Source: Hyphomonadaceae bacterium UKL13-1
GTDB taxonomy: Bacteria > Pseudomonadota > Alphaproteobacteria > Caulobacterales > Aquidulcibacteraceae
Direction: 5' to 3'
NCBI GenBank assembly: GCA_001602435.1
Contig: CP012156.1
Location: 3,355,898-3,419,897, forward strand
Length of the DNA stretch: 64,000 nucleotides
Both the position numbers and the translations under genes were made by a program. The notes beneath the pieces were generated by a model that was not told the DNA's origin, did no database searches, and saw only the letters and a list, made by a program, of their open reading frames with translations. Position 1 is the stretch's first letter, and each line of letters opens with the position of its first letter. Below are positions 8,677 to 43,706 of the stretch, in pieces.

Positions 8677-8719
8677 GGTCGAAAATCCCTCAAGCGTCTG
8701 GCACGATCGGGTTGCGAAC

Positions 8720-26260: not shown

Positions 26261-26778
26261 GTGACGCGCTTCAAATCCGATTGGCAGTAGAATCCGATGC
26301 GCCAGCCTTGGCAGCTTTGGGCGCGAAGACCTTTTTGGCGACCTTTGGTCACCTCTATCCACCAGAAGACAAAGACTATTTTATCGGCGCGCGCTTTAGC
26401 GTGGAGCGTACCCTGCAGGATATTCAAGACCCAGACCGCGTGGTGACGGTCGTCTGTCGCGGCGAGGACATGGTGGCATTTTTGGACTGTGGTACGTTGA
26501 CCCTGCCGGTTGCGGCCCCGGAACCCGATGCCCTTGAACTCTATCGCCTCTATCTGGATGACGATCAAAAAGGCACGGGCCTTGTCCATCGGCTGATGGA
26601 GATTGCACTGGAATGGGCGCGATCAAAAAGCGCCTCAGCCCTTTATCTGGGCGTCTGGTCACAAAACGAACGCGCCAAACGTCTTTATACCAAATACAGC
26701 TTTGAGATTGTTGGGGCCTATCATTTCAAGGTTGGCAATACCTTGGATGACGAACGGATCATGCGTCTCGCGCTTTAG
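26257..26778 (+). CDS. GNAT-family N-acetyltransferase
   Basis: A 173-residue GNAT protein. Acetyl-CoA motif A is degenerate, 'LYLDDDQKGTGLVHRLM', followed by 'ALYLGVWSQNERAKRLYTKY' and 'FEIVGAYHFKVG', the usual motif B. It resembles ribosomal-protein or amino-acid acetyltransferases, but the substrate cannot be set. The GTG start overlaps the hisE stop, so it is translated as part of the his operon. Whether it has any link to histidine is unknown. Confidence 0.83.
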   Translation: MSDALQIRLAVESDAPALAALGAKTFLATFGHLYPPEDKDYFIGARFSVERTLQDIQDPDRVVTVVCRGEDMVAFLDCGTLTLPVAAPEPDALELYRLYLDDDQKGTGLVHRLMEIALEWARSKSASALYLGVWSQNERAKRLYTKYSFEIVGAYHFKVGNTLDDERIMRLAL

Positions 26779-26788
26779 GTCGCCAGCC

Positions 26789-27568: not shown

Positions 27569-27697
27569 AGAAAGCGCTCCAAGGCTGGCCTTGCTAGAAG
27601 TTTTCTATACGCATCTGTTTTCACCCTAACGAGGAATGCAAGCTGCAACCAGTCGTTAGAGATACTATTGCACAGGCCCGCTCGATAAATCGGCATG

Positions 27698-28864
27698 TCA
27701 GGGCAACATCGCCTGTCGCGCCCGGGCAAGTCGGCCAATTGCCTCGCGCAGAACGGCCTCTTGCTTGGCAAAGCACAGGCGGATGATGGGCGGCGCTTCA
27801 TCAGGCTTTTCATAAAGGCTCTGCAAAGGAATCGCCGCCACGCCATAAGTCTTGACGGCCTCAAGGCAGAAATCTAGCGCAGGTCGATCAATGCCTGATT
27901 GTTGCAGGTCAAGGCACATGAAATAGGTGGCCTCGCTGTCCAGCACGTGAAAGCCTTGCTCGATCAGCCCGCTGCGCAACAATTGATAGGCCGCCTGATA
28001 GCCTTCGGCCTGTTCCTCAAACCAAGCCTTCTCCCAGCCGAGACCTTGGGCGACGGCAGCTTGTAAATGAGGCGCCGTGGTAAAGGTCAGGAATTGATGG
28101 GCTTTGCCGATCACCTTGGCGATCGCGGGCTCAGCGCACACAAAGCCGACTTTCCAGCCTGTCACACCAAACATCTTGCCAGCAGAGCCAATTTTCACCG
28201 TGCGCTCGGCCATGCCCGGCAGGGCGAACAGCGACACATGGGGCTGGTCCGTAAGGCGCACATGCTCCCAAACCTCATCGCAAACAGCAATCAAATCATG
28301 ATCTTGGCAGAGCTGGGCCAGACCCATCAGTTCGCTGTGGCTGAAACTTCGCCCAGTTGGGTTCATGGGGTTATTGAGGACAATCGCGCGGGTTTTCGCG
28401 GTAATGGCATCTTCAATCTCGGTAAGATCCAACTGCCAGAGGGGCGGCCGCAACGTGACGGTACGCGGCACGCCACCTGCGCGCGCAATCAGGGGGCGAT
28501 AGGCGTCATAGGCGGGGTCCAGAACGATGACTTCATCTCCCGGTGATAACAGCGCCAGAAAGCTTGCCGCCAGTGCTTCGGTCGCGCCAGAGGTAACCAC
28601 CACATGCTCTGGGCTCAGTTCCAAGCCTTGATGGGCGCCATAATGCTCGGCGACGGCTGTTCGAAGCGCCGGAATTCCTAACATCGGGGGATATTGATTG
28701 CTGCCGGTCATCAGCCCATCGCAGGCCAAGCGCCGCAACGCTTCGGGGCCTTGGCTATCGGGAAAGCCTTGGCCGAGATTGATTGCCTCATGCGTGCGGG
28801 CGAGGCCCGACATCACTTCGAAAATCGTGGTCGGTAGGTCGGCAAAGTGGGAATTAAAGCCCAT
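27698..28864 (-). CDS. PLP-dependent aminotransferase, class I fold
   Basis: A 388-residue fold-type I aminotransferase, of the methionine/kynurenine aminotransferase subgroup by pattern: 'INLGQGFPDSQGPEAL', 'TSGATEALAASFLALL', 'DPAYDAYRPLI', 'NNPMNPTGRSFS', the Schiff-base lysine in 'KIGSAGKMFGVTGWKVGF', and Arg in 'IRLCFAK'. The start at 28864 is 2 bp after the cysK stop and matches the family N-terminus; an earlier ATG at 28954 lies inside cysK. Coupling to cysK suggests sulfur amino-acid metabolism, for example the methionine/keto-acid exchange. Confidence 0.85.
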   Translation of the reverse strand: MGFNSHFADLPTTIFEVMSGLARTHEAINLGQGFPDSQGPEALRRLACDGLMTGSNQYPPMLGIPALRTAVAEHYGAHQGLELSPEHVVVTSGATEALAASFLALLSPGDEVIVLDPAYDAYRPLIARAGGVPRTVTLRPPLWQLDLTEIEDAITAKTRAIVLNNPMNPTGRSFSHSELMGLAQLCQDHDLIAVCDEVWEHVRLTDQPHVSLFALPGMAERTVKIGSAGKMFGVTGWKVGFVCAEPAIAKVIGKAHQFLTFTTAPHLQAAVAQGLGWEKAWFEEQAEGYQAAYQLLRSGLIEQGFHVLDSEATYFMCLDLQQSGIDRPALDFCLEAVKTYGVAAIPLQSLYEKPDEAPPIIRLCFAKQEAVLREAIGRLARARQAMLP

Positions 28865-28866
28865 GC

Positions 28867-29850
28867 TCACAGCCAATCTGCCACCGGAAGGCCTTTGGAG
28901 TTCAAGAAGTCCCGGTTGAACAATTTGCTTTGGTAGCGGCTGGCATAATCGCACAGGATGGTGACGATGGTTTTACCTGGCCCTAGATCCTGCGCCAAGC
29001 GCATCGCACCCACGACATTGAGGGCCGCAGAGCCACCAATGGCCAAGCCTTCGTTCTTCACCAGATCAAACAAGACCGGCAGCCATTCGTCATCTTCGAC
29101 GCGATAGGCGTAATCAACCAGCACGTCTTCCAGATTGGCGGTCACACGTCCTTGGCCGATCCCTTCGGTGATGGAGGTTCCGGTCGCCTTTAGCTCGCCG
29201 TCCTTATACCAATGATAAAGCGCCGCGCCGCCGGGGTCTGCGATGCCAATGGCGATGTTTGGATTGCGGGCCTTCAGCGCTCGACTAATGCCACCCAACG
29301 TGCCGCCAGAGCCGACCGAACAGATGAAGCCGTCAATCTTGCCTCCGGTCTGCTCCCAGATTTCGGGGCCAGTGGTTTCTTCATGCGCGCGACGATTGGC
29401 CAAATTATCAAATTGATTGGCCCAAACGCCGCCATGCTCGTCTGCCAAGCGCTTAGAGACTTTGGTATAATGATCGGGATGGGCGAAGGCGACGGCGTCT
29501 ACTTCCACCAATTCAGCACCAAATAGTTTCACGGCATCCTTTTTCTCTTGCGACTGTGTGCGCGGCATGACGATAATGCAGCGATAGCCCAAGGCATTGG
29601 CGACCATGGACAGGCCGATCCCCGTATTGCCTGCCGTGCCCTCCACGATCAGTCCACCGGGTTTTAATGCGCCGCGCGCCTCAGCGTCGCGAATAATGCC
29701 CAGTGCGGCGCGGTCTTTCACCGATTGGCCGGGGTTTAAGAACTCCGCTTTGCCCAAGATTTCACAGCCTGTCGCCTCGCTGGCGGCGTTCAGGCGGACC
29801 AGTGGCGTCCCGCCAATCAGGTCAATCACTGTTTTGGCATAATGGGTCAT
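28867..29850 (-). CDS. cysK: Cysteine synthase A
   Basis: A 327-residue fold-type II PLP enzyme that joins O-acetylserine and sulfide to give cysteine. The PLP lysine is Lys45 in 'NPGQSVKDRAAL', the substrate loop is 'EGTAGNTGIGLSMV', and the PLP-phosphate loop is 'SVGSGGTLGG'. The longer C-terminus ('FNRDFLNSKGLPVADW') matches the CysK group common in proteobacteria. It lies upstream of the aminotransferase in one operon. Confidence 0.92.
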   Translation of the reverse strand: MTHYAKTVIDLIGGTPLVRLNAASEATGCEILGKAEFLNPGQSVKDRAALGIIRDAEARGALKPGGLIVEGTAGNTGIGLSMVANALGYRCIIVMPRTQSQEKKDAVKLFGAELVEVDAVAFAHPDHYTKVSKRLADEHGGVWANQFDNLANRRAHEETTGPEIWEQTGGKIDGFICSVGSGGTLGGISRALKARNPNIAIGIADPGGAALYHWYKDGELKATGTSITEGIGQGRVTANLEDVLVDYAYRVEDDEWLPVLFDLVKNEGLAIGGSAALNVVGAMRLAQDLGPGKTIVTILCDYASRYQSKLFNRDFLNSKGLPVADWL

Positions 29851-29947
29851 CGCGCATTTAGTCCTTTGGTTTCAAGCCGTGGCGAGCATCTATCTCGCCC
29901 TCACTTGGGGACGCCTGTCAATGTCAGCAAGGCCCGAAACTTTTTGA

Positions 29948-30133
29948 TCACGCGCGATTCTGTGATTGGCTAATTTGTTCAACTTCTTTAAGGCAGTAAC
30001 CTGTTTCAGGGTGTGCCCATCGTAGCGCGCCGATTTGCTCTTTGTGGTCTCTTAGGTCGCGGGCGAGCCATATTTTAAGCCAAGGGACGTGATTGAAGTC
30101 ATGACAGAAGCCGCGCTGCAAGCCTATCTCCAT
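29948..30133 (-). CDS. Possible small protein antisense to the murQ 5' end
   Basis: A 61-codon frame whose last 45 residues read like real protein ('WLARDLRDHKEQIGALRWAH', 'PETGYCLKEVEQ'). They fill most of the gap between cysK and murQ. The only ATG start would overlap the murQ coding region on the other strand by about 33 bp; a TTG 12 bp downstream (30121) is an alternative. No ribosome binding site is clear and I know no family, so this is a tentative call that may be a chance frame. Confidence 0.28.
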   Translation of the reverse strand: MEIGLQRGFCHDFNHVPWLKIWLARDLRDHKEQIGALRWAHPETGYCLKEVEQISQSQNRA

Positions 30134-30982
30134 ATTGCGGACTGGCCAACTGGCGACGCCGTCGCTGAAATGATCGCCAATCAAAGCCAGGCAGCAGACG
30201 CCGTCGCCAAAGTCTCTGCCAGACTCGCCCGCGCGGCGGATGAAGCTGCGGCGCGTCTCGGGCGGTATGGTCGCTTGATCTATGCCGGTGCCGGCACCTC
30301 TGGTCGGATCGGTGTTCAGGATGGGGTAGAGCTTGGCCCCACCTATGGCTGGCCGAAAGAGCGGATGGTCTTCCTGATGGCTGGCGGGCAAACGGCTTTG
30401 ATGCACGCGGTAGAAGGTGCTGAAGACGACCACGCCAAGGGGATGGAAGAAGTCCAGAGCTTGCACCTAACACCAAGCGATGTGGTGATTGGTTTGGCCG
30501 CCAGCGGCTCCACGCCCTATACGATCGGTGTGATTGAGGCTGCGCGCGCTGCAGGCGCTTTGACCATTGGCCTCGCCAACAAATTGCCCGCGCCTTTGTG
30601 CCAAGCTGCTGACATCGGCATTCTGATCGAGACGGGGGCCGAAGTCATCGCAGGCTCTACCCGCATGAAGGCCGGGACCGCCCAGAAGATCGCGCTCAAC
30701 GTGCTCTCCACCGCCATCATGATCCGCCTCGGCTTTGTGTACGAAGGGCGGATGGTCGCGATGCAAATCTCCAATCGCAAGCTTTTGGCGCGTGCCAAAG
30801 CCATGATTGTGGAATTGACGGGTTGCCAAGAAGAGCAAGCCGCTGTTGCCTTAGAGCAAGCTGGGCGTAACATTCGCGTGGCAATCCTATTGGTGAAGGG
30901 CTGGACTTTGGACCAAGCGAAAGCCGATCTTGACCAATGGGCTGGAAATCTTTCCGCTATTCTGCAATCAAAAGCCAGCTGA
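30101..30982 (+). CDS. murQ: N-acetylmuramic acid 6-phosphate etherase
   Basis: A 293-residue SIS-domain enzyme that removes lactate from MurNAc-6-phosphate to give GlcNAc-6-phosphate in peptidoglycan recycling. The SIS motif is 'IYAGAGTSGRIGVQD', followed by 'GLAASGSTPYTIGVIEAA' and 'EVIAGSTRMKAGTAQKIAL', the signature of the etherase family. The start is ATG 30101, with an in-frame GTG 12 bp upstream possible. It lies directly before a GH3 glycosidase gene. No MurNAc PTS, MupG or AmgK is visible, so the source of the phosphorylated sugar is unknown. Confidence 0.93.
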   Translation: MTEAALQAYLHIADWPTGDAVAEMIANQSQAADAVAKVSARLARAADEAAARLGRYGRLIYAGAGTSGRIGVQDGVELGPTYGWPKERMVFLMAGGQTALMHAVEGAEDDHAKGMEEVQSLHLTPSDVVIGLAASGSTPYTIGVIEAARAAGALTIGLANKLPAPLCQAADIGILIETGAEVIAGSTRMKAGTAQKIALNVLSTAIMIRLGFVYEGRMVAMQISNRKLLARAKAMIVELTGCQEEQAAVALEQAGRNIRVAILLVKGWTLDQAKADLDQWAGNLSAILQSKAS

Positions 30983-30998
30983 CATCCGCGAAAGGCAC

Positions 30999-33116
30999 AT
31001 GATGACCGACCTCTCTCCAACCAAGGGCCTAACTCCGGATCAAGTGGCAGAGCGGGTGAATCAGATTCTGGCAGAAGCAACCTTGGCCGAGAAAGTCCAG
31101 ATGATGTCGGGCAAGGGCTTCTTTAAGCTCTTCGCCGAGAGCGGACGGCATTGGGGTGCAAATCCCTATCCGGCTGGCAGCGGTGTTGAGCGGCTCAATG
31201 TCCCACCGCTTTATTTCACAGATGGCCCGCGCGGGGTTGCGCGCGGCAATTCCACTTGCTTCCCCTGCACCATGGCGCGTGGCGCGACCTTTGATGTCGA
31301 TCTAGAGCGGCGTATTGGCGAGGCCATGTCGATTGAAATTCGCGCGCAGGACTGCACCTTGTCTGGGGCTGTTTGCGTCAATCTTTTGCGGCATCCCGCT
31401 TGGGGTCGGGCGCAAGAAACCTATGGCGAAGATCCCTGCCATTTAGGCGAAATGGGTGCGGCGCTGGCCATTGGTCTTCAGACCCATAATGTGATCGCCA
31501 CCGTCAAGCATTATGCGCTCAACTCCATGGAGAATGCGCGCTTCAAAGTCGATGTCCAGATTGACGAGCGCGCTTTGCACGAAGTCTATCTGCCGCATTT
31601 CAAAACCATTTTGGATGCAGGCTGCGCGACGGTCATGAGCGCCTATAACCAGATGAACGGCAGCTTCTGTGGCCAGAGCAAGGCCCTACTGACCGATATT
31701 TTGCGCGTCGAATGGGGCTTTGAGGGCTTTGTGCATTCTGATTGGGTGATGGGCCTGCGCAATGTCTATGCGGCATCTGCTGGTCTCGACATTGAAAACC
31801 CAGAGCCCCTGGTCTTTGGTAAGCACTTGCTGGCCGCTGTGGAGGCGGGCCAGGTTGAGCCGCAAGTGATTGATCAGGCCTGCCGCCGAATTCTTAACAC
31901 CCAATACCGCTTCGCTTGCGCCGAAGATCCCCTGCCAGCCTACAGCCTCGAAATGGTGGTTCAACCCGCCCACATCGCATTGGCGTTAGAGGCGGCGCTC
32001 AAGTCGGCCGTTTTGTTGAAGAATGACTTGATGCTGCCGCTGGACCGGACGAAGCTGAAGAAGCTCGCCGTGCTCGGTCATTTGGCGAACAAAGAAAACA
32101 CCGGCGACTTTGGTTCCAGCCGCGTGCGTCCGCCCTATGTGGTCACAGCACTTCAGGGCTTACAGATCGCTTTGGGTGAAGCGACCGAGATCGTCACGGG
32201 CGATGAAACCGATGTTGTGGCTGCTGTGGCCAATGCCGCCGATGCCGATGCCATCATTGTGGTCGCGGGCTATACTGCGCGGCAAGAAGGCGAATACATT
32301 CCCGAAGACATGACCCTTGGTGTGGCAAGTGACGTGTTGCCCGCGCCAAAGCCTGCTGCGGCCAATGAGCCGAGCGCGGAAGAAGCCCGTGGCGGCGATC
32401 GCACCAATCTGTCTCTACCCGCCGATCAGATCGCCTTGATTGAAGCGGCCTGTGCAACCGGTCGGCCTGTGCTGGTGGTGCTGGTCGCGGGCTCTGCCGT
32501 CTTGGTCGAAGGCTGGCAAAGCCAAGCGAGCGCGATCCTACAAAGCTTCTATTCCGGCATGGAGGGCGGCACCGCTTTGGCGCAACTCGTGCTGGGCGAA
32601 GTGACCCCGTCGGGGAAACTTCCCTTTACTGTAGCCAAAGACCCCGCGCATTATCCCTTCTTCGACAAGGACGCCAATGCCATCATGTACGATTATTGGC
32701 ATGGCTATACCAAGTTTGCGCGCGAGCAGATTGAACCGCGCTATGGCTTTGGCCATGGCTTGTCCTACAGCTGTTACGGCTATCGCGCTTTGAGCTTGCG
32801 CCGGTCGAGAATGGGCTTTCAGGCCCAAGTCAGCGTCACCAATTTGGGTGACCGGGCGGGTGAAGAAATCGCGCAGCTCTATGTTGGCTTCCCGGGCTGC
32901 GTCGCGGATCGTCCTGCCAAAGTCTTGAAGGCCTTCTGCCGCGTCGCGCTAGAGCCCGGCGAGACCAAAGTGATCCGCTTTGACGTGGATACAGATGATT
33001 TGCGCTACCGCGACATCGTAACCCACACATGGCGGTTAGAGCCCGGCACGCACACAATCTTTGTCGGCGGCTCGGCCGCACTGGCCGATCAGCTCAGCGC
33101 GACCATCTCGCTTTAA
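30999..33116 (+). CDS. Glycoside hydrolase family 3, beta-glucosidase type
   Basis: A 705-residue GH3 enzyme: a TIM-barrel domain (about residues 20-290), an alpha/beta sandwich (about 330-530) and a C-terminal fibronectin type III domain (about 610-700). The nucleophile is Asp248 in 'FVHSDWVMG'. 'YFTDGPRGV' and 'AVCVNLLRHPAWGRAQETYG' are standard substrate-pocket motifs. No clear signal peptide is seen, so it acts in the cytoplasm. The size and FnIII domain fit beta-glucosidase/xylosidase rather than NagZ, although the murQ neighbour (16 bp upstream, same strand) makes beta-N-acetylglucosaminide a possible substrate. AAAGG lies 4 nt before the first of two ATGs. Confidence 0.88.
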   Translation: MMTDLSPTKGLTPDQVAERVNQILAEATLAEKVQMMSGKGFFKLFAESGRHWGANPYPAGSGVERLNVPPLYFTDGPRGVARGNSTCFPCTMARGATFDVDLERRIGEAMSIEIRAQDCTLSGAVCVNLLRHPAWGRAQETYGEDPCHLGEMGAALAIGLQTHNVIATVKHYALNSMENARFKVDVQIDERALHEVYLPHFKTILDAGCATVMSAYNQMNGSFCGQSKALLTDILRVEWGFEGFVHSDWVMGLRNVYAASAGLDIENPEPLVFGKHLLAAVEAGQVEPQVIDQACRRILNTQYRFACAEDPLPAYSLEMVVQPAHIALALEAALKSAVLLKNDLMLPLDRTKLKKLAVLGHLANKENTGDFGSSRVRPPYVVTALQGLQIALGEATEIVTGDETDVVAAVANAADADAIIVVAGYTARQEGEYIPEDMTLGVASDVLPAPKPAAANEPSAEEARGGDRTNLSLPADQIALIEAACATGRPVLVVLVAGSAVLVEGWQSQASAILQSFYSGMEGGTALAQLVLGEVTPSGKLPFTVAKDPAHYPFFDKDANAIMYDYWHGYTKFAREQIEPRYGFGHGLSYSCYGYRALSLRRSRMGFQAQVSVTNLGDRAGEEIAQLYVGFPGCVADRPAKVLKAFCRVALEPGETKVIRFDVDTDDLRYRDIVTHTWRLEPGTHTIFVGGSAALADQLSATISL

Positions 33117-33122
33117 GGGCGG

Positions 33123-34193
33123 CTAGATCGTCAGAAGGCCGTGATCCAGCTTTGGCAGCACATAGCGGCCAAACAGGTCGCACTCGGCCGCATGGGGATA
33201 GCCTGATAGGATGAAGGCGTCGAACCCGACGTCCCGGTAAGCGTTGATCTTGGCCAGCACTTGGTCTGGATCGCCAACAATGGCGGCACCACAGCCAGAG
33301 CGGGCGCGGCCAATGCCGGTCCACAAATTGTCTTCTACATAGCCATCATTGGCGCTGGCGGCTTCGCGCAGTTCGGCTTGACGACGCACACCCACGGATG
33401 TGGCATCCAAGGACTTGGCGCGGATCGCGTCGCCGGTGGCTGCGTCGAGTTTGCTGAGAAGACGATTGGCGGCTTCGCGCGCTTCGGCTTCGGTTTCGCG
33501 CACCACGACATGGACGCGGAAGCCGTGCTTAAGCGTGCGGCCATATTTGGCAGCGCGTGCATTCATATCGTCCAAGACGGCCTTCGAATTGGCCACCGTG
33601 TCGGGCCACATCAGGTATACGTCGGCAGCTTTAGCCGCGACTTCGCGCGCGTCTTCCGACAGCCCGCCAAAGTAGAAATAAGGCGACTTACCTGATTGTG
33701 TCGTGATGCGGGGTGGGGCCAGATCAAATTGGAAGAATTCGCCCTGATGCTTAACCGTCTCGCCATTCATCCAGGCGCGCAGGATCTCCATCGCTTCCAA
33801 GGTGCGCGCGTAACGGGGGGCAGAGCCCATGGTTTCGCCGGGCATTTCGGAAGAAATGAAGTTCACTGCCAGCCTGCCCTGCATCATCCGATCCAGCGTG
33901 GCCAATTGCCGCACAACCTGAGGCGGCCACATTTCACCGACCCGAATGGCCAGCAAAAGACGCATCCGGCTGGTCAAACCGGCAATGCCAGCGGCAAACA
34001 CGGTATTATCAATGCCCAGCTGATAGCCCGATGGCAGCAAGATATTGTCAAAGCCATTCTTCTCAGCGGTTAGCGCGATATTGCGGCAATGTTCCCAGCT
34101 AGACTGCAGCGCCGGCTCTGAATGGCCCAAAAACTCGTAATCGTCATCGCACAGGGCGGAAAACCAACTGACTTCAACAGGATTACGGGCCAT
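33123..34193 (-). CDS. SsuD-like FMNH2-dependent sulfonate monooxygenase
   Basis: A 356-residue LLM-class flavin oxidoreductase, close in pattern to alkanesulfonate monooxygenase: 'TLDRMMQGRLAVNFIS', 'FYFGGLSEDAREVAAKAADV', 'FRVHVVVRETEAEA' (Arg and His of the active site) and 'FILSGYPHAAE' (Tyr, His). SsuD splits C-S bonds with reduced FMN and O2, giving an aldehyde and sulfite. No flavin reductase (SsuE) is present here. It is transcribed towards the GH3 gene, and the sulfonate-type ABC genes lie 1.2 kb upstream. The natural substrate may be an alkanesulfonate or a sulfosugar; the sequence alone does not say. Confidence 0.85.
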   Translation of the reverse strand: MARNPVEVSWFSALCDDDYEFLGHSEPALQSSWEHCRNIALTAEKNGFDNILLPSGYQLGIDNTVFAAGIAGLTSRMRLLLAIRVGEMWPPQVVRQLATLDRMMQGRLAVNFISSEMPGETMGSAPRYARTLEAMEILRAWMNGETVKHQGEFFQFDLAPPRITTQSGKSPYFYFGGLSEDAREVAAKAADVYLMWPDTVANSKAVLDDMNARAAKYGRTLKHGFRVHVVVRETEAEAREAANRLLSKLDAATGDAIRAKSLDATSVGVRRQAELREAASANDGYVEDNLWTGIGRARSGCGAAIVGDPDQVLAKINAYRDVGFDAFILSGYPHAAECDLFGRYVLPKLDHGLLTI

Positions 34194-34286
34194 GACTATT
34201 TCCTCATACTGCCAAGAGGGCGTGTATCGCCCGCCATTATGCTTATGATGTCTTATAACGAGTCAACGCAGCTTCGGGGAGAGGTC

Positions 34287-35378
34287 ATGAGCGGCAAAAT
34301 ACGGGTGGGAGTCATTGGCACAGGCATGATGGGCTATGAGCACATCAATAATTTGAAGCTGATGCCCGAAGTTGAAATCACAGCTTTGGCAGACCCGACC
34401 GAAAAGATGCTGGCTTTGGGCAAAGGCATGCTGGGCCCTGCAGGCGCTAATGTGGCGACCTTTGCGACAGGGGATGAGCTTTTGGCCGCTGGCCTCGTCG
34501 ATGCCGTCGTCATCGCCTCGCCAAACTTCACCCACCACGATGTGTTACAGCCCGTATTCAAAAGCGGCGTGCATGTCTTGTGCGAAAAGCCCTTATGCAC
34601 CACCGCAGAGGACGCCGCCCGCATCCGCGACCAAGCCGCAGCTTATAAGGGCGTGTTCTGGGTAGGGATGGAATATCGCTTCATGCCACCCGCGACGGAA
34701 TTTGTGACCCGCGTGCATCGCGGCGATGTCGGCCGCTTGATGATGGTGTCGATCCGTGAACATCGCTTCCCCTTCTTGCAGAAGGTCGATGATTGGAACC
34801 GTTTCTCGGCCAATACGGGCGGGACGATGGTCGAGAAGTGCTGCCACTTCTTCGATCTGATGCGCCATATCATCCAGTCCGAGCCGACCCGGGTTTATTG
34901 CTCGGGCAATATGGACATCAACCACCAAGACGAGCGCTATGACGGTCGCAAGCCCGACATTATCGACAACAGCTTTACTGTCGTCGATTTCGCCAATGGC
35001 ACGCGCGCCATGCTCGATCTGTGCATGTTCGCCGATGGCGCCGAGCATCAGGAAGAAATTTCGGCAACCGGCGATAAAGCCCGCCTCGACGTGCTGATCC
35101 CCCCCGGTGAAATGGTGATGAGCCCACGGGTTGGCTTCCGCCAGCCTAAGCAAGTCACGCGCGAAACCATCCATGTCGATCCCGTCGCACTCGAGGCCGG
35201 CTCGCACTTTGGCGCGACCTTCTATCAACAGCGGGCTTGGATCGACGCGATCTTGAACGGCGCGCCAGTCCAGGTGACGGCCCAAGACGGCCTGCAAGCT
35301 GTGCGCATGGGTGCCGCAGCAGAGCTATCGGCAGCAACCGGTCGTGCGATTGAGATGAGCGAAATTGCTGGCGGCTAA
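34287..35378 (+). CDS. Gfo/Idh/MocA-family oxidoreductase
   Basis: A 363-residue NAD(P)-dependent sugar oxidoreductase fold: Rossmann motif 'GVIGTGMMGYEHINN' (residues about 8-22), 'ASPNFTHHDVL', the catalytic-site 'CEKPL' (EKP at 100-102) and 'GTMVEKCCHFFDLMRHII'. The family covers sugar and inositol dehydrogenases, GH109, and NAD-dependent glycosidases including a sulfoquinovosidase family (GH188). Membership in that last group is a guess prompted by the sulfonate genes on both sides. The start is chosen because GGGGAGAGGT lies 4 nt before this ATG. It is divergent from the SsuD-like gene. Confidence 0.82.
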   Translation: MSGKIRVGVIGTGMMGYEHINNLKLMPEVEITALADPTEKMLALGKGMLGPAGANVATFATGDELLAAGLVDAVVIASPNFTHHDVLQPVFKSGVHVLCEKPLCTTAEDAARIRDQAAAYKGVFWVGMEYRFMPPATEFVTRVHRGDVGRLMMVSIREHRFPFLQKVDDWNRFSANTGGTMVEKCCHFFDLMRHIIQSEPTRVYCSGNMDINHQDERYDGRKPDIIDNSFTVVDFANGTRAMLDLCMFADGAEHQEEISATGDKARLDVLIPPGEMVMSPRVGFRQPKQVTRETIHVDPVALEAGSHFGATFYQQRAWIDAILNGAPVQVTAQDGLQAVRMGAAAELSAATGRAIEMSEIAGG

Positions 35379-35402
35379 AGCCGGATTTCTGAGCTAAAGA
35401 AG

Positions 35403-35433
35403 GGGCTGGGGTCAGGCGACCTCAGCCCTTTTT
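35403..35433 (+). terminator. Rho-independent terminator after the Gfo/Idh/MocA gene
   Basis: An 11-bp stem with one G-T pair, GGGCTGGGGTC pairing with GACCTCAGCCC around loop AGGC, is followed by TTTTT. It lies between convergent genes and, with the A-rich AAAGAA side, may also act on the minus-strand ABC operon that ends at 35443. Confidence 0.85.
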
Positions 35434-35442
35434 CATGTCGGC

Positions 35443-36201
35443 CTAATGCGCTTCCCGCGCGCGGGGGTCGTCGCCAAACAATTTGTCGAGGATTTGGCCC
35501 TCAAGGGCGGCAAACTCTGGCGTACCGCGTTTGCGCGGGCGGGGCAGGTTGACGGGCAAATCCAACACCACTTGGCCATGATCAATCAGGATCACGCGGT
35601 CGCCGAGCGCCACAGCCTCACCCACATCATGGGTGACCATCAAAGCGGTAAAGCCCAAATCTTGCCACACCCCTTCGAGGAGCGCCTGCATGTCAATGCG
35701 GGTTAAGGCGTCCAGTGCGCCCAATGGTTCGTCCAAGGCCAACAAAGTTGGTTGTGATACAAGGGCGCGGGCCAAGGCCACACGTTGCCGCATTCCGCCC
35801 GAAAGCTGGGATGGCCATAGGCCTTCGCGGCCTTTCAGGCCCACTTCATCGAGGATCGCGGCGGCTTGGTTGTCTGCAGCCTTGCCCGATTGGCCTTCGC
35901 CGAGGCCCACGGCGACATTGTCCTTGACGCTGGCCCACGGCAGCAAACGCGGCTCTTGAAACACGATGCGGGCCGCTTGTTCTTTCAGCGCCGGGGCGTC
36001 CAACACGCCAGCAGTGACCGAGTCCAAGCCGATCATCAAGCGCAGCAATGTTGACTTCCCGCAGCCGGACTTTCCCACGATGGACACAAATTGACCCGCC
36101 GGGATTTCAAGGTCGATCCCTTGCAGAACGACATTGCTGCCAAAGGCTTTTTTCACATCTTTCAGGCTAACGCGTGACCCGCCGGTTGGTTGGCTGCTCA
36201 T
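35443..36201 (-). CDS. ssuB: ABC transporter ATPase, sulfonate/nitrate type
   Basis: A 252-residue ATPase of the SsuB/TauB/NrtD group: Walker A 'GKSGCGKST' (residues 43-51), signature 'LSGGMRQRVALARALV', Walker B 'LLALDEPLGALDA', and H-loop 'MVTHDVGEAVALGDRV'. It drives import with the permease encoded 3 bp upstream. The substrate is inferred from the SsuD-like gene nearby. It is the last gene of the receptor-binding protein-permease-ATPase operon. Confidence 0.85.
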   Translation of the reverse strand: MSSQPTGGSRVSLKDVKKAFGSNVVLQGIDLEIPAGQFVSIVGKSGCGKSTLLRLMIGLDSVTAGVLDAPALKEQAARIVFQEPRLLPWASVKDNVAVGLGEGQSGKAADNQAAAILDEVGLKGREGLWPSQLSGGMRQRVALARALVSQPTLLALDEPLGALDALTRIDMQALLEGVWQDLGFTALMVTHDVGEAVALGDRVILIDHGQVVLDLPVNLPRPRKRGTPEFAALEGQILDKLFGDDPRAREAH

Positions 36202-36204
36202 GGT

Positions 36205-36987
36205 TTAGACCTTCGCATAAGCTGGGTTCCACGCGAGGAACTTGCGTTCCAGTGCGCGGGTGGCGCTATCGGCTAGCTTGCCCAAAATCGCATAAATGAC
36301 AATCGATAGAACGACGATGTCTGTCTGCATGAACTCGCGCGCAGCCATGGCCATATGGCCAATGCCAGAATTGGCCGCGATGGTTTCTGCCACGATCAAG
36401 GTCAGCCACATCACGCCCAAAGCAAAGCGCAGGCCGACGAAGATAGAGGGCAGGGCACCCGGCAAAATCACCTTCAAGAACAAGGTGCGGTTATTCATGC
36501 CGTAAATGCGGCCCATCTCGATCAATTGCGGGTCAACATTGCGGACCCCGTGCAAGGTGTTGAGATAGATCGGGAAGAACACACCCAGTGCGACCAAGAA
36601 CAAACGTGCGCTCTCGCCAATGCCAAACCAGATGATGACCAAAGGAATCAAAGCCAAGTGCGGGATGTTGCGGATCATCTGAAGCGTTGGGTCCAGCAGC
36701 ATTTCTGCCTGCTTACTGAGACCATTGAGTAGACCAAGGCTAAAGCCAATCGCCCCACCAATAATCAGGCCACTCATGGCGCGCGCAAAGCTGACGCCCA
36801 GATTATCAACCAAACTGCCATCTTGGAGCTTGACCCAAGCGGCTTGCAGCACGGCAGTCGGGGCAGGCAGGATGTTGGGCGGCAGCCAGCCCAAGCTGGA
36901 TGAAACTTGCCAGAGAATGATCAGTGCCAAAGGCACTAACCACGGAAGTGCCCGACTAAAAGGACCTTCGGAGGCCGTTGCTGCCAT
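36205..36987 (-). CDS. ssuC: ABC transporter permease, sulfonate/nitrate type
   Basis: A 260-residue inner-membrane permease with about six helices and the EAA loop in 'EMGRIYGMNNRTLFLKVILP' followed by 'GALPSIFVGLRFALGVMW'. This matches SsuC/TauC permeases. It lies 3 bp from both neighbours, so the operon is read as one message. Length and helix count are normal. Confidence 0.86.
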   Translation of the reverse strand: MAATASEGPFSRALPWLVPLALIILWQVSSSLGWLPPNILPAPTAVLQAAWVKLQDGSLVDNLGVSFARAMSGLIIGGAIGFSLGLLNGLSKQAEMLLDPTLQMIRNIPHLALIPLVIIWFGIGESARLFLVALGVFFPIYLNTLHGVRNVDPQLIEMGRIYGMNNRTLFLKVILPGALPSIFVGLRFALGVMWLTLIVAETIAANSGIGHMAMAAREFMQTDIVVLSIVIYAILGKLADSATRALERKFLAWNPAYAKV

Positions 36988-36990
36988 CTT

Positions 36991-37962
36991 CTACCCTGTC
37001 CAGCCGCGCCAGGCGGCATCGCTGATGATAACTTTCTTGGGTATGATCCCCATTTGCGCAAAGCGGTCAACCGTTGCTTGTTGTGCGGCCAGCACATCGT
37101 CGGTCAAGGGCTCTACTTTAAAGTCTGTCCGCTTCATCGTGTCTTTGAGAAGCTCGAGCTCTAGGCCGGATGCTTTGGCGGAAATCTCGGCCACGGCATC
37201 GGTATTGGCGGCACACCATTCGCCTTCTTTGGCGATGGCAGACAGCAAAACTTTCAGGTCTTCAGGGCGTGCTTCGGCAAATTTTGCGTTCGCCAAGAGG
37301 AAGCTTGCTCCGCCACCCAGTTGATCCAGACCCGATAGAACCCGCGCACCCTGATCGCGGATCGCGAGGCTGTAATAGGGGTCCCAGATCACCCAGCCAT
37401 CAATGCCGCCTTGGGCAAAGGCCGCCGCGGCGTCGGCTGGGCCGAGATTGACCGCTTCCACATCGGCCAGCGTTAGGCCAACGCTTTGCAGCGCAATGAC
37501 CGCACTATTATGCGCCGAGGAGCCGCGCGTGAAGCACAGCTTCTTGCCTTTCAGGTCCTTGAGGGACTGAACCGAAGAGCCTTTTGGCGTGATGATCCCG
37601 CCTGCTTTGCCCGAAAGACGGACTTGGGCCACATATTTGATCGGGGCATTTGCCACTTGGGCAAAAATCGGTGGGGTATCGCCAGTCAGGCCCAAATCGA
37701 CAGAGCCGACGGCCATGGCTTCTAAAAGGGGTGGGCCGGATGGGAACTCAACCCAATTCAGCGGCGTGATGCCGGCTGTCTTGAGCGGTTCAACCAATGA
37801 GCCGCGTGTTTGGGCCACCAGCATGACCCCGTTTTTTTGAAAGGCGAGATTAACGCCCTTGCCTGTGGAACCGCTGCCTTGGCCACAGGCGGCAAGGGCA
37901 GCCGAAGCTGCCCCTGCTACCAAGAGACCGCGACGCGAGAACCTGTCCGCAATCGCTGTCAT
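36991..37962 (-). CDS. ssuA: Sulfonate-type ABC substrate-binding lipoprotein
   Basis: A 323-residue NMT1/SsuA-like periplasmic binding protein: 'EFPSGPPLLEAMAVGSVDLG', 'LKGKKLCFTRGSSAHNSAV' and 'GGIDGWVIWDPYYSLA' are SsuA landmarks. The N-terminus combines a twin arginine ('SRRGLLVAG') with a lipobox ('ALAAC', Cys near 26), so it may be a Tat-exported lipoprotein. Binding specificity cannot be read from the sequence. It starts 4 bp after the TonB receptor stop. Confidence 0.86.
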   Translation of the reverse strand: MTAIADRFSRRGLLVAGAASAALAACGQGSGSTGKGVNLAFQKNGVMLVAQTRGSLVEPLKTAGITPLNWVEFPSGPPLLEAMAVGSVDLGLTGDTPPIFAQVANAPIKYVAQVRLSGKAGGIITPKGSSVQSLKDLKGKKLCFTRGSSAHNSAVIALQSVGLTLADVEAVNLGPADAAAAFAQGGIDGWVIWDPYYSLAIRDQGARVLSGLDQLGGGASFLLANAKFAEARPEDLKVLLSAIAKEGEWCAANTDAVAEISAKASGLELELLKDTMKRTDFKVEPLTDDVLAAQQATVDRFAQMGIIPKKVIISDAAWRGWTG

Positions 37963-37966
37963 AGGA

Positions 37967-40273
37967 TTAGCCCCCGAACTTCGCGCGCAGGGTCAAACCG
38001 ACATAACGGTCTGCATCGCGTGGGATCAGATAGCGAAGCGAACCACCTGGGCCACCTGGCGTGACCAACGATGCATATTTCTCGTCGGTCAGGTTCTTGA
38101 TGTTCAAGGTCAAGCGATAACGGTCTTGCTTGTCGCTGATCCCAATCGACGCATCGACGATGGTGGTTTCAGGGATGCGCAGCAATGGGTTCTCGCCAAT
38201 GTCGGAGAATTGGTCGCTGCTGTAGGAAACCTGGCCATTCAAGTGAATGATCCCTGGAACCGCTTCAGGTTCCCACTCATAATTCGCACCCAACGAAGCT
38301 TTGAAGCGTGGCGACAGGGCCAAACGCTCACCCCGACGGGTGGAGGACAGAACCAAGCTGGCATCGCGGAACTCTTCGATCTGGGCGTCGGTGACGGCCA
38401 AACCACCATTGATGGTCAGGCCGCTGTTGGCGCGGATCAACCAGTCGAGCTCGAGGCCCGTGGTCGACACGTTACCAGCATTGGTCAAACGCGTGATGAC
38501 TACACCGTTCAAGGTGTCGAAGTTGTTGGCTTGGAAGTTCTCATAAACAGCGCGGAAAACCGCGAAGTTCAAGATCACGCGGTTGTCCATAAAGGCCGTT
38601 TTCACGCCGCCTTCGGTCGAATCCACGGTTTCTGGCTCAATGGCGTTCAGACCCGTTGGGTTCATGTTGAAGAAGACGTTGTAAGCAGGGCCCTTGTAGC
38701 CACGCGACTGTGTCAAATAGAAGTTGATATCGTCGGTAGCTTGGTACTTCAGACCCAATTTACCGGAGACATTGTCCTCTTTGGTGTTACCTTTGAAGCC
38801 GCTGGTATCGTTGCGCAGGCCTGGCAGGCCGCCAATCGGTGCAGGGATACGGTTGTGGTAGTAGCTGAGCTTGTCTTGGGTGAAGCGCAGGCCACCGACA
38901 ATCGACAGGCGCTCGGTTGCCTTATAGCTGCCGTCTGCAAACAAAGCGGCGTTGCGTGATTCAGAGCCAAAGTTCGCGCTCGAGAAAGCGGTCACGAAGG
39001 TCGAAACGCCGGTAGCGGTCGAGCAAGGACGCTGGCCGGTGGTGTCGATCGCCAAGGTCGAGGCGGAGCAAACAATCACGTCGCGACGGAAGTCACGCTC
39101 AGTTTCAGCGTTCGCATAATAGGCACCAACCACATATTCCAAGGCCTTGCCGCTTGGCGAGGTCAAGCGCAATTCTTGGCTGAACGTGGTCGAGGTTTGT
39201 GGGCCATCGTCATGCAATTGGGCAAAGCCGTTGCCGACATAAGCCGCCGGACGGTCCAACCAGTCGCCTTCGCGAACTTCGCGGTTGTCCCAGCCACGGT
39301 AAGCGGTGATGGAGGTGACGGTGAAGTCGCCAGCTTCCCAATCGGCTTGAGCCGATACACCCCAAGACTCTTCTTCGGTGCGGGTGACGAGGTTGTTGCG
39401 AACAGCGCGGGTTTCGTCGCCTGCAAAGGTGATGCCTGGCAGAAGCGACAGAAGGGCAGCGCCGTTGGCACCCGATGGTGCCGTACCAATGACTTCGCCG
39501 CAGCAATTGTCGTCAGCTTTGCGGTAGTCACCGATCAAGCGCACTTTCAGGCTTTCAGAGGCATCAATGTCCAAGATGCCGCGAACGCCATAACGCTCAT
39601 AGCCATTGATCTTGCTGCCAGTGGTCAGATTGGTGATGTTGCCGTCGTACGAGCCGCCGAAAACCGTGACGCGCGAACGGACGCTGTCGCTGAATGGCAT
39701 GTCGACCGACGCGCGCAGCTTGTACTCATTGCCGTCGTTTGCGGTGACTTGGATGTCGCCGCTATGCACGCGGCCTGGGCTTTGAGAGATGATGTTGACC
39801 ACACCGGCAGACGAGTTCTTGCCGAACAAAGTACCTTGAGGGCCGCGCAAGACTTCGATGCGCTGAATGTCGGACAAGTCCCCGAATGCTTCACCGGCGC
39901 GTGCCAAAACAACGCCGTCCAACACCACAGCGACGCTAGGCTCTGCTGCGATGGAGAAGTTGATCGTGCCGACGCCGCGCAAGAACAGCGAGGAGTTCAG
40001 GTTCGTGCCGCCCTTACGGAAGTTCAGGGTTGGGATTTGGGTTTGCACGCTTTCGATGTTGTAGCCACCTGCGCGAGCAATTTGCTCTCCGCCGATAACC
40101 GAAACAGCAGCAGCCACTTCTTGCACGTTTTGAACGCGCTTTTGTGCCGTCACGATGATGACTTCAGCACCTTCATCGGATTTTGCTTCGGTAGCCGCCT
40201 GAGCAAATGCACTTGTGCCCATAGCAAAGAAAAGTGTGGCCGCCGCGGCGGACCCAAGTAAAAGATGACGCAT
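37967..40273 (-). CDS. TonB-dependent outer-membrane receptor
   Basis: A 768-residue receptor: signal peptide (1-24, ending AFA), a TonB-box-like 'EVIIVTAQKR' (about 37-46), the plug domain ('GGTNLNSSLFLRGVGTINF', 'IQRIEVLRGPQGTLFGKNSS') and a 22-strand barrel ending in 'RYVGLTLRAKFGG', with the aromatic-rich C-terminal strand in the long Caulobacter-type form. It takes large or scarce substrates across the outer membrane using TonB energy. It heads an operon with the SsuA/C/B importer, so the two probably carry the same substrate. Confidence 0.93.
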   Translation of the reverse strand: MRHLLLGSAAAATLFFAMGTSAFAQAATEAKSDEGAEVIIVTAQKRVQNVQEVAAAVSVIGGEQIARAGGYNIESVQTQIPTLNFRKGGTNLNSSLFLRGVGTINFSIAAEPSVAVVLDGVVLARAGEAFGDLSDIQRIEVLRGPQGTLFGKNSSAGVVNIISQSPGRVHSGDIQVTANDGNEYKLRASVDMPFSDSVRSRVTVFGGSYDGNITNLTTGSKINGYERYGVRGILDIDASESLKVRLIGDYRKADDNCCGEVIGTAPSGANGAALLSLLPGITFAGDETRAVRNNLVTRTEEESWGVSAQADWEAGDFTVTSITAYRGWDNREVREGDWLDRPAAYVGNGFAQLHDDGPQTSTTFSQELRLTSPSGKALEYVVGAYYANAETERDFRRDVIVCSASTLAIDTTGQRPCSTATGVSTFVTAFSSANFGSESRNAALFADGSYKATERLSIVGGLRFTQDKLSYYHNRIPAPIGGLPGLRNDTSGFKGNTKEDNVSGKLGLKYQATDDINFYLTQSRGYKGPAYNVFFNMNPTGLNAIEPETVDSTEGGVKTAFMDNRVILNFAVFRAVYENFQANNFDTLNGVVITRLTNAGNVSTTGLELDWLIRANSGLTINGGLAVTDAQIEEFRDASLVLSSTRRGERLALSPRFKASLGANYEWEPEAVPGIIHLNGQVSYSSDQFSDIGENPLLRIPETTIVDASIGISDKQDRYRLTLNIKNLTDEKYASLVTPGGPGGSLRYLIPRDADRYVGLTLRAKFGG

Positions 40274-40473
40274 GTTATCCCCTCAGTGATGATGGATCTC
40301 TAAGTATCCTTCGATTGACGTCAAAATCACGTTCTCGTCGTGAAAAGCAAGTGGCCTTTGTGTTTGAAACTTCCGATTTGAGTGGCGGGTGCTATTCTCG
40401 CAACACTTTGACCTTGTGCCCTTTCCTTTAAAACAGATTGGCCGATTGCCCTAGCAGCGCAGCTAACCATAGA

Positions 40474-40490
40474 CCTAAGCTAAGCTTAGG
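40474..40490. promoter_or_regulatory. Palindromic operator-like site before mvaB
   Basis: CCTAAGC-TAA-GCTTAGG is a perfect 7-bp inverted repeat with a 3-nt centre. The pentamer CTAAG or its complement recurs four times across 40475-40495. It lies 48 bp before the HMG-CoA lyase start in the divergent gap with the TonB receptor. It is likely a regulator's binding site, but no regulator gene is adjacent. Confidence 0.55.
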
Positions 40491-40537
40491 CTTAGTTTGG
40501 CGGCACACAGCTAAAAGCGCACCACGGGGTAAGGGTC

Positions 40538-41446
40538 ATGAATAGCGTTGAAATTGTTGAAGTTGGTGCGCGCGACGGGTTGCAGAACGAGCCAGACATT
40601 CTGCCGACCGACAAAAAGGTCGCGCTGATCCAAGCCGCCATTGCGGCAGGAGTGCGCCGGATTGAGACTGCCAGCTTCGTGAATCCTCGCCGTGTCCCCC
40701 AGATGGCCGATGCGGAGGCCGTGATGGAGGCCCTGCCTGATAGCGATAAAGTGACCTATATCGGCCTTGTACTGAATGAACGGGGCGCAGAGCGTGCGCT
40801 TCTGACCCGCGTCCATGAACTCGGAGCCGTGGCTGTGGCAAGCGATAGTTTTGCCATGCGCAACCAAGGTCAAACCAGCGCCGAGAGCATCCAAGTCGCC
40901 AATGCGATTGTCGGCATGGCCAAGGCGGCGGGTCGGTCGGGACAGGTCACGATTTCGGCGGCCTTTGGCTGCCCATTTGAAGGTGAAGTCGACCCAGACC
41001 ATGTCGTGGCGATGGCCGAAGCCTTGGCCAAGGCTGGCCCGCGTGAAATTGGCTTAGCCGATACGATTGGCGTGGCGGTGCCCAGCCAAGTTAAGGCCTT
41101 GGTGACGCGCGTCCAAGCTGTTGTCGGTGACATTCCCATCCGCGCGCATTTTCACAATACACGCAACACGGGCCTCGCCAATGCGTGGGCGGCGTTTGAG
41201 GCGGGCGCGGTCACGCTTGATTCCAGTCTGGGCGGGCTGGGCGGTTGCCCATTCGCGCCCAAGGCGACAGGCAATATCCCGACCGAGGACTTACTCTATT
41301 TGCTGCACCGCTCTGGCGTTGCAACCGGGATCGACCTTGATGCCATGATTGAGGCGGGACAATGGTTGACGGACGTGATGGGCAGGCCCTTGCCTTCCAT
41401 GGTCACCAAAGCCGGCAATTTCCCACCACAGACCGCTGCGGCGTGA
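40538..41446 (+). CDS. mvaB: Hydroxymethylglutaryl-CoA lyase
   Basis: A 302-residue HMGL/DRE-TIM lyase that splits HMG-CoA into acetoacetate and acetyl-CoA, the last step of leucine breakdown. 'VGARDGLQNEP' opens the barrel, 'HFHNTRNTGLANA' holds the metal-binding histidines, and 'GLGGCPFAPKATGNIPTEDL' carries the catalytic cysteine loop. It is followed 8 bp later by a CoA-transferase. The usual leucine genes (liuA-D) are not in the window, so the pair may serve a different 3-hydroxy-3-methyl acid. Confidence 0.93.
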   Translation: MNSVEIVEVGARDGLQNEPDILPTDKKVALIQAAIAAGVRRIETASFVNPRRVPQMADAEAVMEALPDSDKVTYIGLVLNERGAERALLTRVHELGAVAVASDSFAMRNQGQTSAESIQVANAIVGMAKAAGRSGQVTISAAFGCPFEGEVDPDHVVAMAEALAKAGPREIGLADTIGVAVPSQVKALVTRVQAVVGDIPIRAHFHNTRNTGLANAWAAFEAGAVTLDSSLGGLGGCPFAPKATGNIPTEDLLYLLHRSGVATGIDLDAMIEAGQWLTDVMGRPLPSMVTKAGNFPPQTAAA

Positions 41447-41454
41447 GGGTTCCC

Positions 41455-42654
41455 ATGTCTGAAGCCACCGGACCCCTGAAAGGCTTGCGCGTCATCGAAT
41501 TAGGCGTGTTATTGGCTGGGCCATTCTGCGGACAAATCTTGGGCGATCTGGGGGCCGAAGTGATCAAGGTCGAGCCCCCCGGCCAAGGCGACCCATTGCG
41601 CGAATGGGGCACGGTGAAAAAGGATGGCCATGGCGTTTGGTTCCCGATTGTTGCCCGCAATAAAAAGTGCATCACACTGGATTTACGACAGGCCGAGGGT
41701 CAAGCGGTCCTAAAAGACCTCATCAAGCAAGCCGACTTCCTGTTGGAGAATTTTCGCCCCGGCACGCTGGAGAAATGGGGTTTGGGCTATGACGTTTTGT
41801 CGGCCATTAATCCCGGTCTGATCATGATCCGCGTGTCCGGCTATGGCCAGACAGGCCCCAACAGTCCCAAGGCGGGCTATGCCAGTGTGGGCGAGGCGAT
41901 GGGTGGCCTACGCTATGTGATGGGCGAGCCTGATCGCATGCCGTCGCGGGCAGGCATCTCCATCGGCGACAGTTTAGCCGCGACTTATGCCGCCATCGGC
42001 GCGTTGGCAGCACTGGAGCATCGCCGCAATACAGGGCGCGGCCAGATCGTCGATTCTGCGATTTATGAAGCCTGCTTTGCCATGATGGAAAGCCTCGTGC
42101 CAGACTATCATTTCGGCGGCTATATCCGCGAGCGGACGGGCTCTTTCCTGCCGAAAATCGCTCCGTCCAATATCTATCCGGCCAGCGACGGGATGCTGAT
42201 CCTTGCCGCCAATCAAGACACGGTTTGGCGACGCTTGGCTGAAGCCATGGGCCAGCCCGAACTTGCCGATGATCCGCGCTTTCTGAACCATGTCGCGCGC
42301 GGCGAGAACCAAGCCGAATTGGATGCTTTGGTGAGTGCCTGGAGCATTCAGATGACGTGCACCGACTTAGAGGCCGTGTGCGAGGCCCATGGCGTGCCAT
42401 GTGGTCGCATCTATCGCGCACCAGATATGTTGGCCGACCCACACTTTGCTGCCCGCGAAGCGATTGTCACAGTCGAGCATCCAGAGCTGGGGCCGTTCCC
42501 GATGCCAAACGTCTTCCCGAAACTATCGAGCACACCAGGTAATGTGCGCTGGACAGGGCCGGAGCTGGGTAGCCATACCAGCGAAGTCCTCACCGACATG
42601 CTGGGCTATGATGCCGATAAGATCGCCACCCTCAAGCGTGCGGGCGTGATTTAG
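41455..42654 (+). CDS. CaiB/BaiF-family (class III) CoA-transferase
   Basis: A 399-residue class III CoA-transferase: '[20 protein letters not shown]', '[18 protein letters not shown]', the catalytic Asp expected in '[13 protein letters not shown]', and '[10 protein letters not shown]' near the end. It moves CoA between carboxylic acids, often activating a substrate for the neighbouring lyase. I set the start at ATG 41455 because the longer frame from 41362 lies within mvaB. It is convergent with ruvB, overlapping it by 4 bp. Confidence 0.9.
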
Positions 42655-43706
42655 CGCGCTGAATCGTCAAACAGGCCTGATTGGGGTGGGGCCTTGGGTT
42701 CTGGCAGGCCGAACAGCTGGTAGGCCCGGGCTGCGGCCACACGGCCACGCGGTGTGCGCATGATAAAGCCTTGCTGCATCAAATAAGGCTCAATCACATC
42801 CTCCACCCCGTCACGGGCTTCGGAGATGGCAGCTGCAAGGGTTTCAACACCAACTGGCCCACCGCCATAAGTCTCCACCAGGGCACGCAGATAGCGGCGG
42901 TCGAGCATATCAAGCCCGTCAGGATCAATATCGAGACGGGCTAGACCATGGGCGGCGGTCTGGGCATCTAAGGGGCTGCCCAAGGCATCAGCAAAGTCAC
43001 GCACGCGGCGTAATAAGCGCACGGCGATCCGGGGGGTGCCCCGAGCACGGCGTGCAATTTCGGTGGCCCCATCGGGGGTCAAGGGTGCCCCAAGCTTTCC
43101 TGCTGCGCGTCGCAGGATGAGTTCCAAGTCCGCCACGCTATAAAAATCGAGGCGCGAGACGATGCCAAATCGGTCGCGCAACGGCGTTGATAATAGGCCC
43201 GCGCGCGTCGTCGCACCAACCAACGTAAAGGGTGATAGATCAATGCGGATCGACCGGGCCGAAGGACCTTCGCCAATCACCAGATCCAGCGCGTAATCTT
43301 CCATCGCCGGATAGAGAATTTCCTCCACCGCTGCCGGCAGACGGTGGATTTCGTCGATGAACAGCACGTCGCGCGGTTCGAGATTGGTCAGAAGGGCTGC
43401 AAGATCGCCCGCTTTGGCGATAACAGGCCCAGATGTTGTTTTGAGGTTCACGCCTAATTCGCGCGCCGTAATCTGCGCCAGCGTGGTCTTGCCGAGACCT
43501 GGTGGACCAAACAGCAGCAAATGGTCCATCGCATCGCCCCGCCCTTTGGCGGCACGCACGAAGATTTCGAGGTTTGCTTTAAGATCGGTCTGGCCAACAA
43601 ATTCGTCGAAGCCCGACGGGCGCAGCGCGCGGTCGAGCGTGTCGCCGACCCGCAATTCCGATGAAATGAGGCGTTCGCCGTCAATGCCCTCACCCGACTG
43701 GTTCAT
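42651..43706 (-). CDS. ruvB: Holliday junction branch-migration ATPase RuvB
   Basis: A 351-residue AAA+ motor: Walker A 'GPPGLGKTT', Walker B/box '[11 protein letters not shown]', sensor 1 'LVGATTRAG', a winged-helix DNA-binding C-terminus with '[20 protein letters not shown]'. It drives branch migration with RuvA on the junction that RuvC cuts. The start overlaps the ruvA stop by 4 bp. Confidence 0.97.

Follow-up and report, generated by a model that had tools for sequence, protein, structure and literature searches.

What is the role of a TonB-dependent outer-membrane receptor gene that shares an operon with genes of a sulfonate importer, next to genes encoding an SsuD-like monooxygenase and a Gfo/Idh/MocA-type oxidoreductase? 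The question is raised by a locus within a 64,000-nucleotide stretch (here, the window; G000:C1:3355898-3419897) of the Hyphomonadaceae bacterium UKL13-1 genome, a single contig of 3.50 Mb from the genus Candidatus Phycosocius, which comprises freshwater algal symbionts. Reading along the - strand from position 40273, the TonB receptor gene is followed by ssuA, ssuC and ssuB, with gaps of 4, 3 and 3 bp, respectively. The SsuD-like gene lies 93 bp from the divergent Gfo/Idh/MocA gene, which is in turn convergent with ssuB. These positions and strands confirm what had been described in an earlier reading of the sequence alone (the sequence-only reading), namely a tightly spaced four-gene unit next to an adjoining monooxygenase and oxidoreductase pair. 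As considered below, the locus probably directs the import and sulfolysis of sulfoquinovose (SQ) glycosides by way of a variant sulfo-SMO/ASMO pathway.

The Gfo/Idh/MocA gene, found on the + strand, likely begins with the ATG at position 34287 (the corresponding entry in the list of open reading frames begins at 34122) and extends to position 35378. When compared to solved structures, its predicted product yielded scores of 376 bits with 8qc2 (51.9% identity), 368 bits with 8qc3 and 326 bits with 8zn9, with the next match, 3ezy, reaching 85 bits. 8qc2 and 8qc3 correspond to FlSqgA and ArSqgA, published GH188 sulfoquinovosidases (PMC10755693). Mapping by alignment placed the ligand-binding or catalytic residues K107, Y136, E189, H193 and H321 of ArSqgA at K102, Y131, E184, H188 and H308 of the window protein, and the sulfonate triad R166, L170 and K172 at R161, L165 and K167. 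All eight residues are invariant in two alignments, comprising 11 and 14 homologues, respectively. At L165, the protein carries the usual Leu and not the Tyr of the GH188 variant described in PMC11465081. Whereas the sequence-only reading had raised membership in GH188 with the proviso that grouping with ordinary dehydrogenases and missing GH188 residues would speak otherwise, the score gap and the residues exclude an ordinary sugar dehydrogenase. On the basis of homology and residue conservation, the protein is a predicted NAD-dependent sulfoquinovosidase (SqgA) of family GH188.

The SsuD-like protein (33123-34193, - strand) was similarly considered. The protein yielded a score of 359 bits and 51.0% identity with SmoC (7oh2), as compared to 213 bits and 37.1% with MsuD and 195 bits with SsuD, and its score of 254.4 bits with the SsuD model TIGR03565 is under the cut-off of 518.2. 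In a phylogenetic tree, it is found together with SmoC proteins on a branch with 100/100 support, apart from SsuD and MsuD. The SsuD cut-off and the tree thus exclude an SsuD/MsuD-type monooxygenase. Alignment, inspected by eye, revealed that the protein retains the Arg, His, Arg and Tyr through which SsuD/MsuD enzymes contact the sulfonate. The second Arg and the Tyr are named as R296 and Y330 in PMC8234197. SmoC is the only relative in the genome at E <= 0.001. The earlier proposal of a desulfonation-type enzyme holds, with the clade being SmoC/SquD and not SsuD. The predicted enzyme is, by homology and tree, an FMNH2-dependent SQ monooxygenase of the SmoC/SquD clade, pointing to SQ rather than to alkanesulfonates in general. 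By eye, no signal peptide is evident in either this protein or the GH188 protein, as fits the need of cytoplasmic cleavage and C-S scission, and in agreement with where the sequence-only reading had placed these steps.

The importer genes were next assigned. SsuA (36991-37962, - strand), predicted to bear a Tat signal and a lipobox, scored 213.7 bits with TIGR01728 (SsuA_fam; cut-off 163.5), and its nearest solved structures are those of SsuA, namely 2x26 and 3e4r. The twin-arginine motif and the lipobox residue Cys26 are invariant across six homologues, and Q42, G76, G94 and S149 correspond to the sulfonate-holding residues Q36, G68, G86 and S141 of Xanthomonas citri SsuA. The SsuC-type permease (36205-36987, - strand) scored 349.7 bits with PRK11365 (SsuC; cut-off 347), while the best family for the SsuB-type ATPase (35443-36201, - strand) is PRK11247, an aliphatic sulfonate ATPase, with 297 bits falling below the cut-off of 395. 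The pocket of X. citri SsuA, of about 1635 cubic angstroms, is only 14% filled (PMC3839906), such that a bulkier ligand is conceivable. SsuABC may accordingly carry SQ glycosides across the inner membrane. Orphan SsuA-like lipoproteins, without SsuB or SsuC, were also seen in Sphingomonadaceae SQ loci that contain a major facilitator superfamily (MFS) transporter and a TonB receptor (L206, 5515-6438; L220, 9434-10396).

The TonB-dependent receptor (37967-40273, - strand) contains a plug (PF07715) and a beta-barrel (PF00593), both scoring above cut-offs, and the TonB-box-like sequence VIIVTAQKR follows its signal peptide. In a weak structure prediction based on 16 sequences, barrel strands were seen with a pLDDT of 60 and the plug was unmodelled. 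Among family models, the general TonB-siderophor one matches best, although the score of 141.8 bits is below the cut-off of 223.5. In a tree of 55 receptors, the window receptor belongs to a 100% supported clade of 22 members, each encoded beside GH188 and/or SmoC. This clade spans Caulobacterales and Sphingomonadales, including, among others, Sphingomonas, Sandarakinorhabdus, Polymorphobacter, Phenylobacterium and Phycosocius. The linked receptors do not, overall, form a single clade (5 label changes, as compared to a shuffle mean of 11), and more than one receptor type would therefore have been recruited. Membership in the clade, together with the co-occurrence of SsuA with GH188 and SmoC described below, supports a putative role of the receptor as a carrier of sulfoquinovosyl glycosides.

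To determine how widely these components are distributed, 299 genomes of the order were searched, with a cut-off of E <= 1e-60 for GH188 and SmoC. GH188 was found in 31 genomes and SmoC in 26. A close SsuA (at least 52% identity) was found in 10 genomes, all of which also encode GH188 and SmoC, and in none lacking them; since eight of the 10 belong to one genus, the independence of this co-occurrence is limited. A distant SsuA (35-37% identity) is encoded in six more genomes. Three genera, all from one family, have SsuABC next to GH188, the combination recurring in G172 (L039, where the receptor is also present) and in G152 (L044, together with SmoB and SmoC). The receptor gene, 4 bp from ssuA within the genus, is adjacent to it in another genus. 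Within the genus, Ca. P. bacilliformis BOTRYCO-2 (G013) contains the same GH188 gene (93% identity), and the SmoC-GH188 adjacency seen in the window is found in seven congeners. In four of these, a single contig holds the entire block, in two, the receptor-SsuABC genes are set apart by a contig break, and in Ca. P. bacilliformis, the SmoC-GH188 pair is about 25 kb from the receptor-SsuABC genes. The sampled congener G018 (2.5 Mb) is without GH188, SmoC, this SsuA and this receptor. Subsets of the locus, sharing 40-75% identity, reappear in additional genera and families. Given how the grouping is kept in congeners and subsets recur elsewhere, the gene set reflects more than chance.

Neighborhoods were then counted in 62 related full-flank loci from other genera, with SmoC being present in 42. 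These 42 encode a SmoB-type reductase (38 loci), a related TonB receptor (29), an MFS transporter (31), an SSS transporter (4) and SsuABC (1), with the MFS, SSS, aldo/keto reductase, GH31, TauD-type, LacI and GntR labels having been checked with Pfam. As the slot of inner-membrane importer is elsewhere taken by MFS or SSS proteins, SsuABC is one rare filling of that slot.

In the proposed pathway, SQ glycosides, of which sulfoquinovosyl glycerol (SQGro) derived from algal sulfolipid is the most likely, would be taken through the outer membrane by the TonB receptor and then moved into the cytoplasm by the SsuA lipoprotein and SsuCB. There, GH188 is predicted to cut the glycoside via transient oxidation by NAD+ at C3, following which SmoC, relying on FMNH2 from an unlinked flavin reductase, would cleave the C-S bond to yield sulfite and 6-oxo-glucose. 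Conversion of the latter to glucose could be catalyzed by an unlinked SmoB-like reductase. For the predicted enzyme steps, the evidence is strong homology and conservation of residues, and for the putative transport steps, it is clade membership, adjacency and co-occurrence. No flavin reductase and no SsuE is encoded in the locus, as is the case for the flavin reductase in some known sulfo-SMO clusters (PMC9594981); one PF01613 flavin reductase is encoded elsewhere in the genome, at 1.597 Mb. The SmoB-like aldo/keto reductase (G000:C1:1499428-1500333), the best SmoB candidate in the genome, matches a SmoC-linked reductase at 54%. Among solved structures, its best match is SmoB (7bbz, 155 bits), with YdhF being close behind (145 bits), while a phylogenetic tree places it together with SmoC-linked SmoBs from the same family, at an SH-aLRT of 87.

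Several points weigh against this proposal. No SmoB/SquF reductase is encoded in the locus itself, and the unlinked SmoB homologue may serve another purpose, as it persists in G018 in the absence of both SmoC and GH188. The link between SsuABC and GH188 is seen within one family only, leaving about three genera as independent evidence, and G038, also from that family, encodes GH188 and SmoC yet lacks this SsuA. Finally, a second pair of MFS and TonB receptor genes is found at 2.199-2.203 Mb (L290, G000:C1:2192001-2211000, 7037-10761), adjoining IS66 transposase-like and ArdC-like genes, both named by eye. The MFS protein of this pair shares 69% identity with that of SQ locus L185, and the receptor shares 56% with its counterparts in the SQ loci L221 and L195. 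As this pair is of the type found in SQ loci, SsuABC may not be the main or only SQ importer; at the same time, the pair lends further weight to SQ being used by the organism.

The organization of the locus into transcription units also bears on how it is to be understood. A terminator hairpin of 16 pairs, including A/U ends, lies between the convergent GH188 gene and ssuB (35398-35433; -27.3 kcal/mol, z -5.8 on the + strand; -19.2 kcal/mol, z -3.5 on the - strand). Because the GH188 gene is divergent from smoC and is convergent with ssuB across this terminator, the locus comprises at least three transcription units and not one. The region shared upstream of smoC and the GH188 gene (34194-34286), showing 90-99% identity in seven congeners, likely holds the promoters of both. 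No regulator gene was found within the locus, no operator common to this region and the region upstream of the receptor gene was seen by eye, and sigma-70 sites were not commoner than in shuffles. Control of the receptor by a cobalamin riboswitch was also considered and dropped, as no Rfam match, that riboswitch included, was found across window positions 26000-43000.

If SQ is indeed processed here, does it provide sulfur or carbon? It could be that the locus serves in sulfur scavenging only, with SQ being desulfonated under sulfur limitation and 6-oxo-glucose not being recovered as carbon. This would fit an SsuABC-type importer, typical of sulfonate-sulfur scavenging, a locus without SmoB and the presence of a cysteine synthase gene at a distance of 3-4 kb. 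Yet the grouping of the unlinked reductase with SmoC-linked SmoBs argues for recovery of the sugar, and cysteine synthase genes are unlinked to the SQ loci of other genera in the full-flank set. Moreover, no CysH/CysD or sulfite reductase is encoded in the window's assembly, where released sulfite would be unusable, whereas these are present in all eight congeners. The longest match in the window genome to a 20-kb stretch of G013 that includes cysDNHI (L285, G013:C9:5001-25000, 6818-13203) is at most 61 bases, while most of the stretch is found in G003. The missing cys genes may thus represent either a real loss or a replicon absent from the record. Were the loss real, the cell would be unable to assimilate the sulfite released, favoring carbon use along with sulfite export. 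Overall, scavenging for sulfur only is possible but rather doubtful.

Alternatively, two systems could lie side by side, with GH188 and SmoC acting on SQ that enters via another importer, perhaps the pair at 2.2 Mb, and the receptor and SsuABC serving for alkanesulfonates or other organosulfur compounds. The terminator separating the GH188 gene from ssuB, the distance of about 25 kb between the two units in G013, the general sulfonate-binding residues retained by SsuA and the very existence of a second pair of SQ-locus type could all be so explained. Such a division is nonetheless unlikely, given that the close SsuA never appears without GH188 and SmoC, that GH188 and SsuABC are adjacent in three genera, that the clade of the receptor is found only in SQ loci, and that no SsuD accompanies the importer, SmoC being the only relative in the genome at E <= 0.001. 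That the receptor instead serves for iron-siderophores or cobalamin and precedes ssuABC by chance is highly improbable, since, despite its best family model, it falls within a clade of SQ-locus receptors from two orders, has no Rfam match, riboswitches included, across 26000-43000, and is next to ssuA in two genera.

The proposed SQ glycoside pathway was also compared to known systems. With the sulfo-SMO/ASMO pathways of Agrobacterium tumefaciens (SmoA-I) and Novosphingobium aromaticivorans (SquD/SquF), it shares a SmoC/SquD monooxygenase and a sulfoquinovosidase, with O2-dependent C-S cleavage being expected. It differs in relying on SsuABC and a TonB receptor, where A. tumefaciens uses an SQGro ABC transporter, in having SmoB/SquF outside the locus, and in having GH188 in place of a GH31 glycosidase. 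With SqgA enzymes, the GH188 protein shares 52% identity and all catalytic and sulfonate-binding residues, the present locus being from Candidatus Phycosocius; alphaproteobacterial sulfo-SMO clusters with GH188, such as that of Sphingomonas sp. Leaf17, have already been reported (PMC10755693). With SsuABC/SsuD alkanesulfonate scavenging, the locus shares SsuA, SsuB and SsuC, by family membership or nearest family, and sulfonate-binding residues, yet its monooxygenase is SmoC-type, there is no SsuE and a TonB receptor gene heads the operon. Sulfo-SDO loci of the same order also contain GH188 and often a SmoB-type reductase, with a TauD-family dioxygenase where SmoC is found here. Loci combining GH188 and a dioxygenase of this type (L046-L052, L060, L244, L247, L250, L251, L253) are seen across further families of the order and also among Erythrobacter-like genomes. 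GH188 was also seen without SmoC in conserved neighborhoods (L240, L241, L245, L246, L258 and L242, L248, L254; Pelagibacteraceae, Thioglobus-like).

What is new here is accordingly the TonB-SsuABC import module and its ecological setting, the pathway itself and GH188 in sulfo-SMO clusters being already known. The main text of PMC10755693 makes no mention of TonB receptors, the outer membrane or transporters, and TonB receptors are not linked to SQ in the openly readable literature searched. As the passage of SQ glycosides across the outer membrane of Gram-negative bacteria is not addressed in that literature, the receptor clade, found in two orders, offers a concrete candidate. The sharpest of the findings is the ecological one. 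SQ is produced at some ten billion tons a year (PMC10755693), and a 2023 study of the same genus held sulfur-based interactions with algae to be unlikely, given the absence of dimethylsulfoniopropionate genes and the sulfur-poor nature of freshwater (PMC10008586). The locus provides a testable counter-hypothesis, namely that the bacteria use the sugar of algal sulfolipid, and is suggestive of a connection through sulfur with freshwater algae. The fuller proposal, in which the receptor family is specific to sulfoquinovosyl glycosides and is joined in this genus to an SsuABC importer repurposed from alkanesulfonates, with the freshwater symbionts thereby drawing on algal sulfolipid, may be given an even chance.

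Other genes are found around the locus. A GH3 gene (~30996-33116, + strand) ends 6 bp from smoC and is convergent with it, as had been stated in the sequence-only reading. Together with a MurQ-like gene, it forms a tandem (30089-33116) that is conserved only within the genus, with no linkage of GH3 to smoC elsewhere, and genes encoding a TauE/SafE-type permease and cysteine synthase are found at 26789-29850. As none of the GH3, MurQ, CysK or TauE genes is present in any of the 62 full-flank related loci outside the genus, these were dropped as parts of the system. Beyond that count, a locus from one further genus of the family encodes a cysteine synthase of 69% identity close to SmoB-SmoC (L116, 2739-3737). 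On the other side of the locus, the inverted repeat CCTAAGC-TAA-GCTTAGG (40474-40490), related forms of which are seen in congeners, lies upstream of a hydroxymethylglutaryl-CoA-lyase-like gene and is possibly the operator of that operon.

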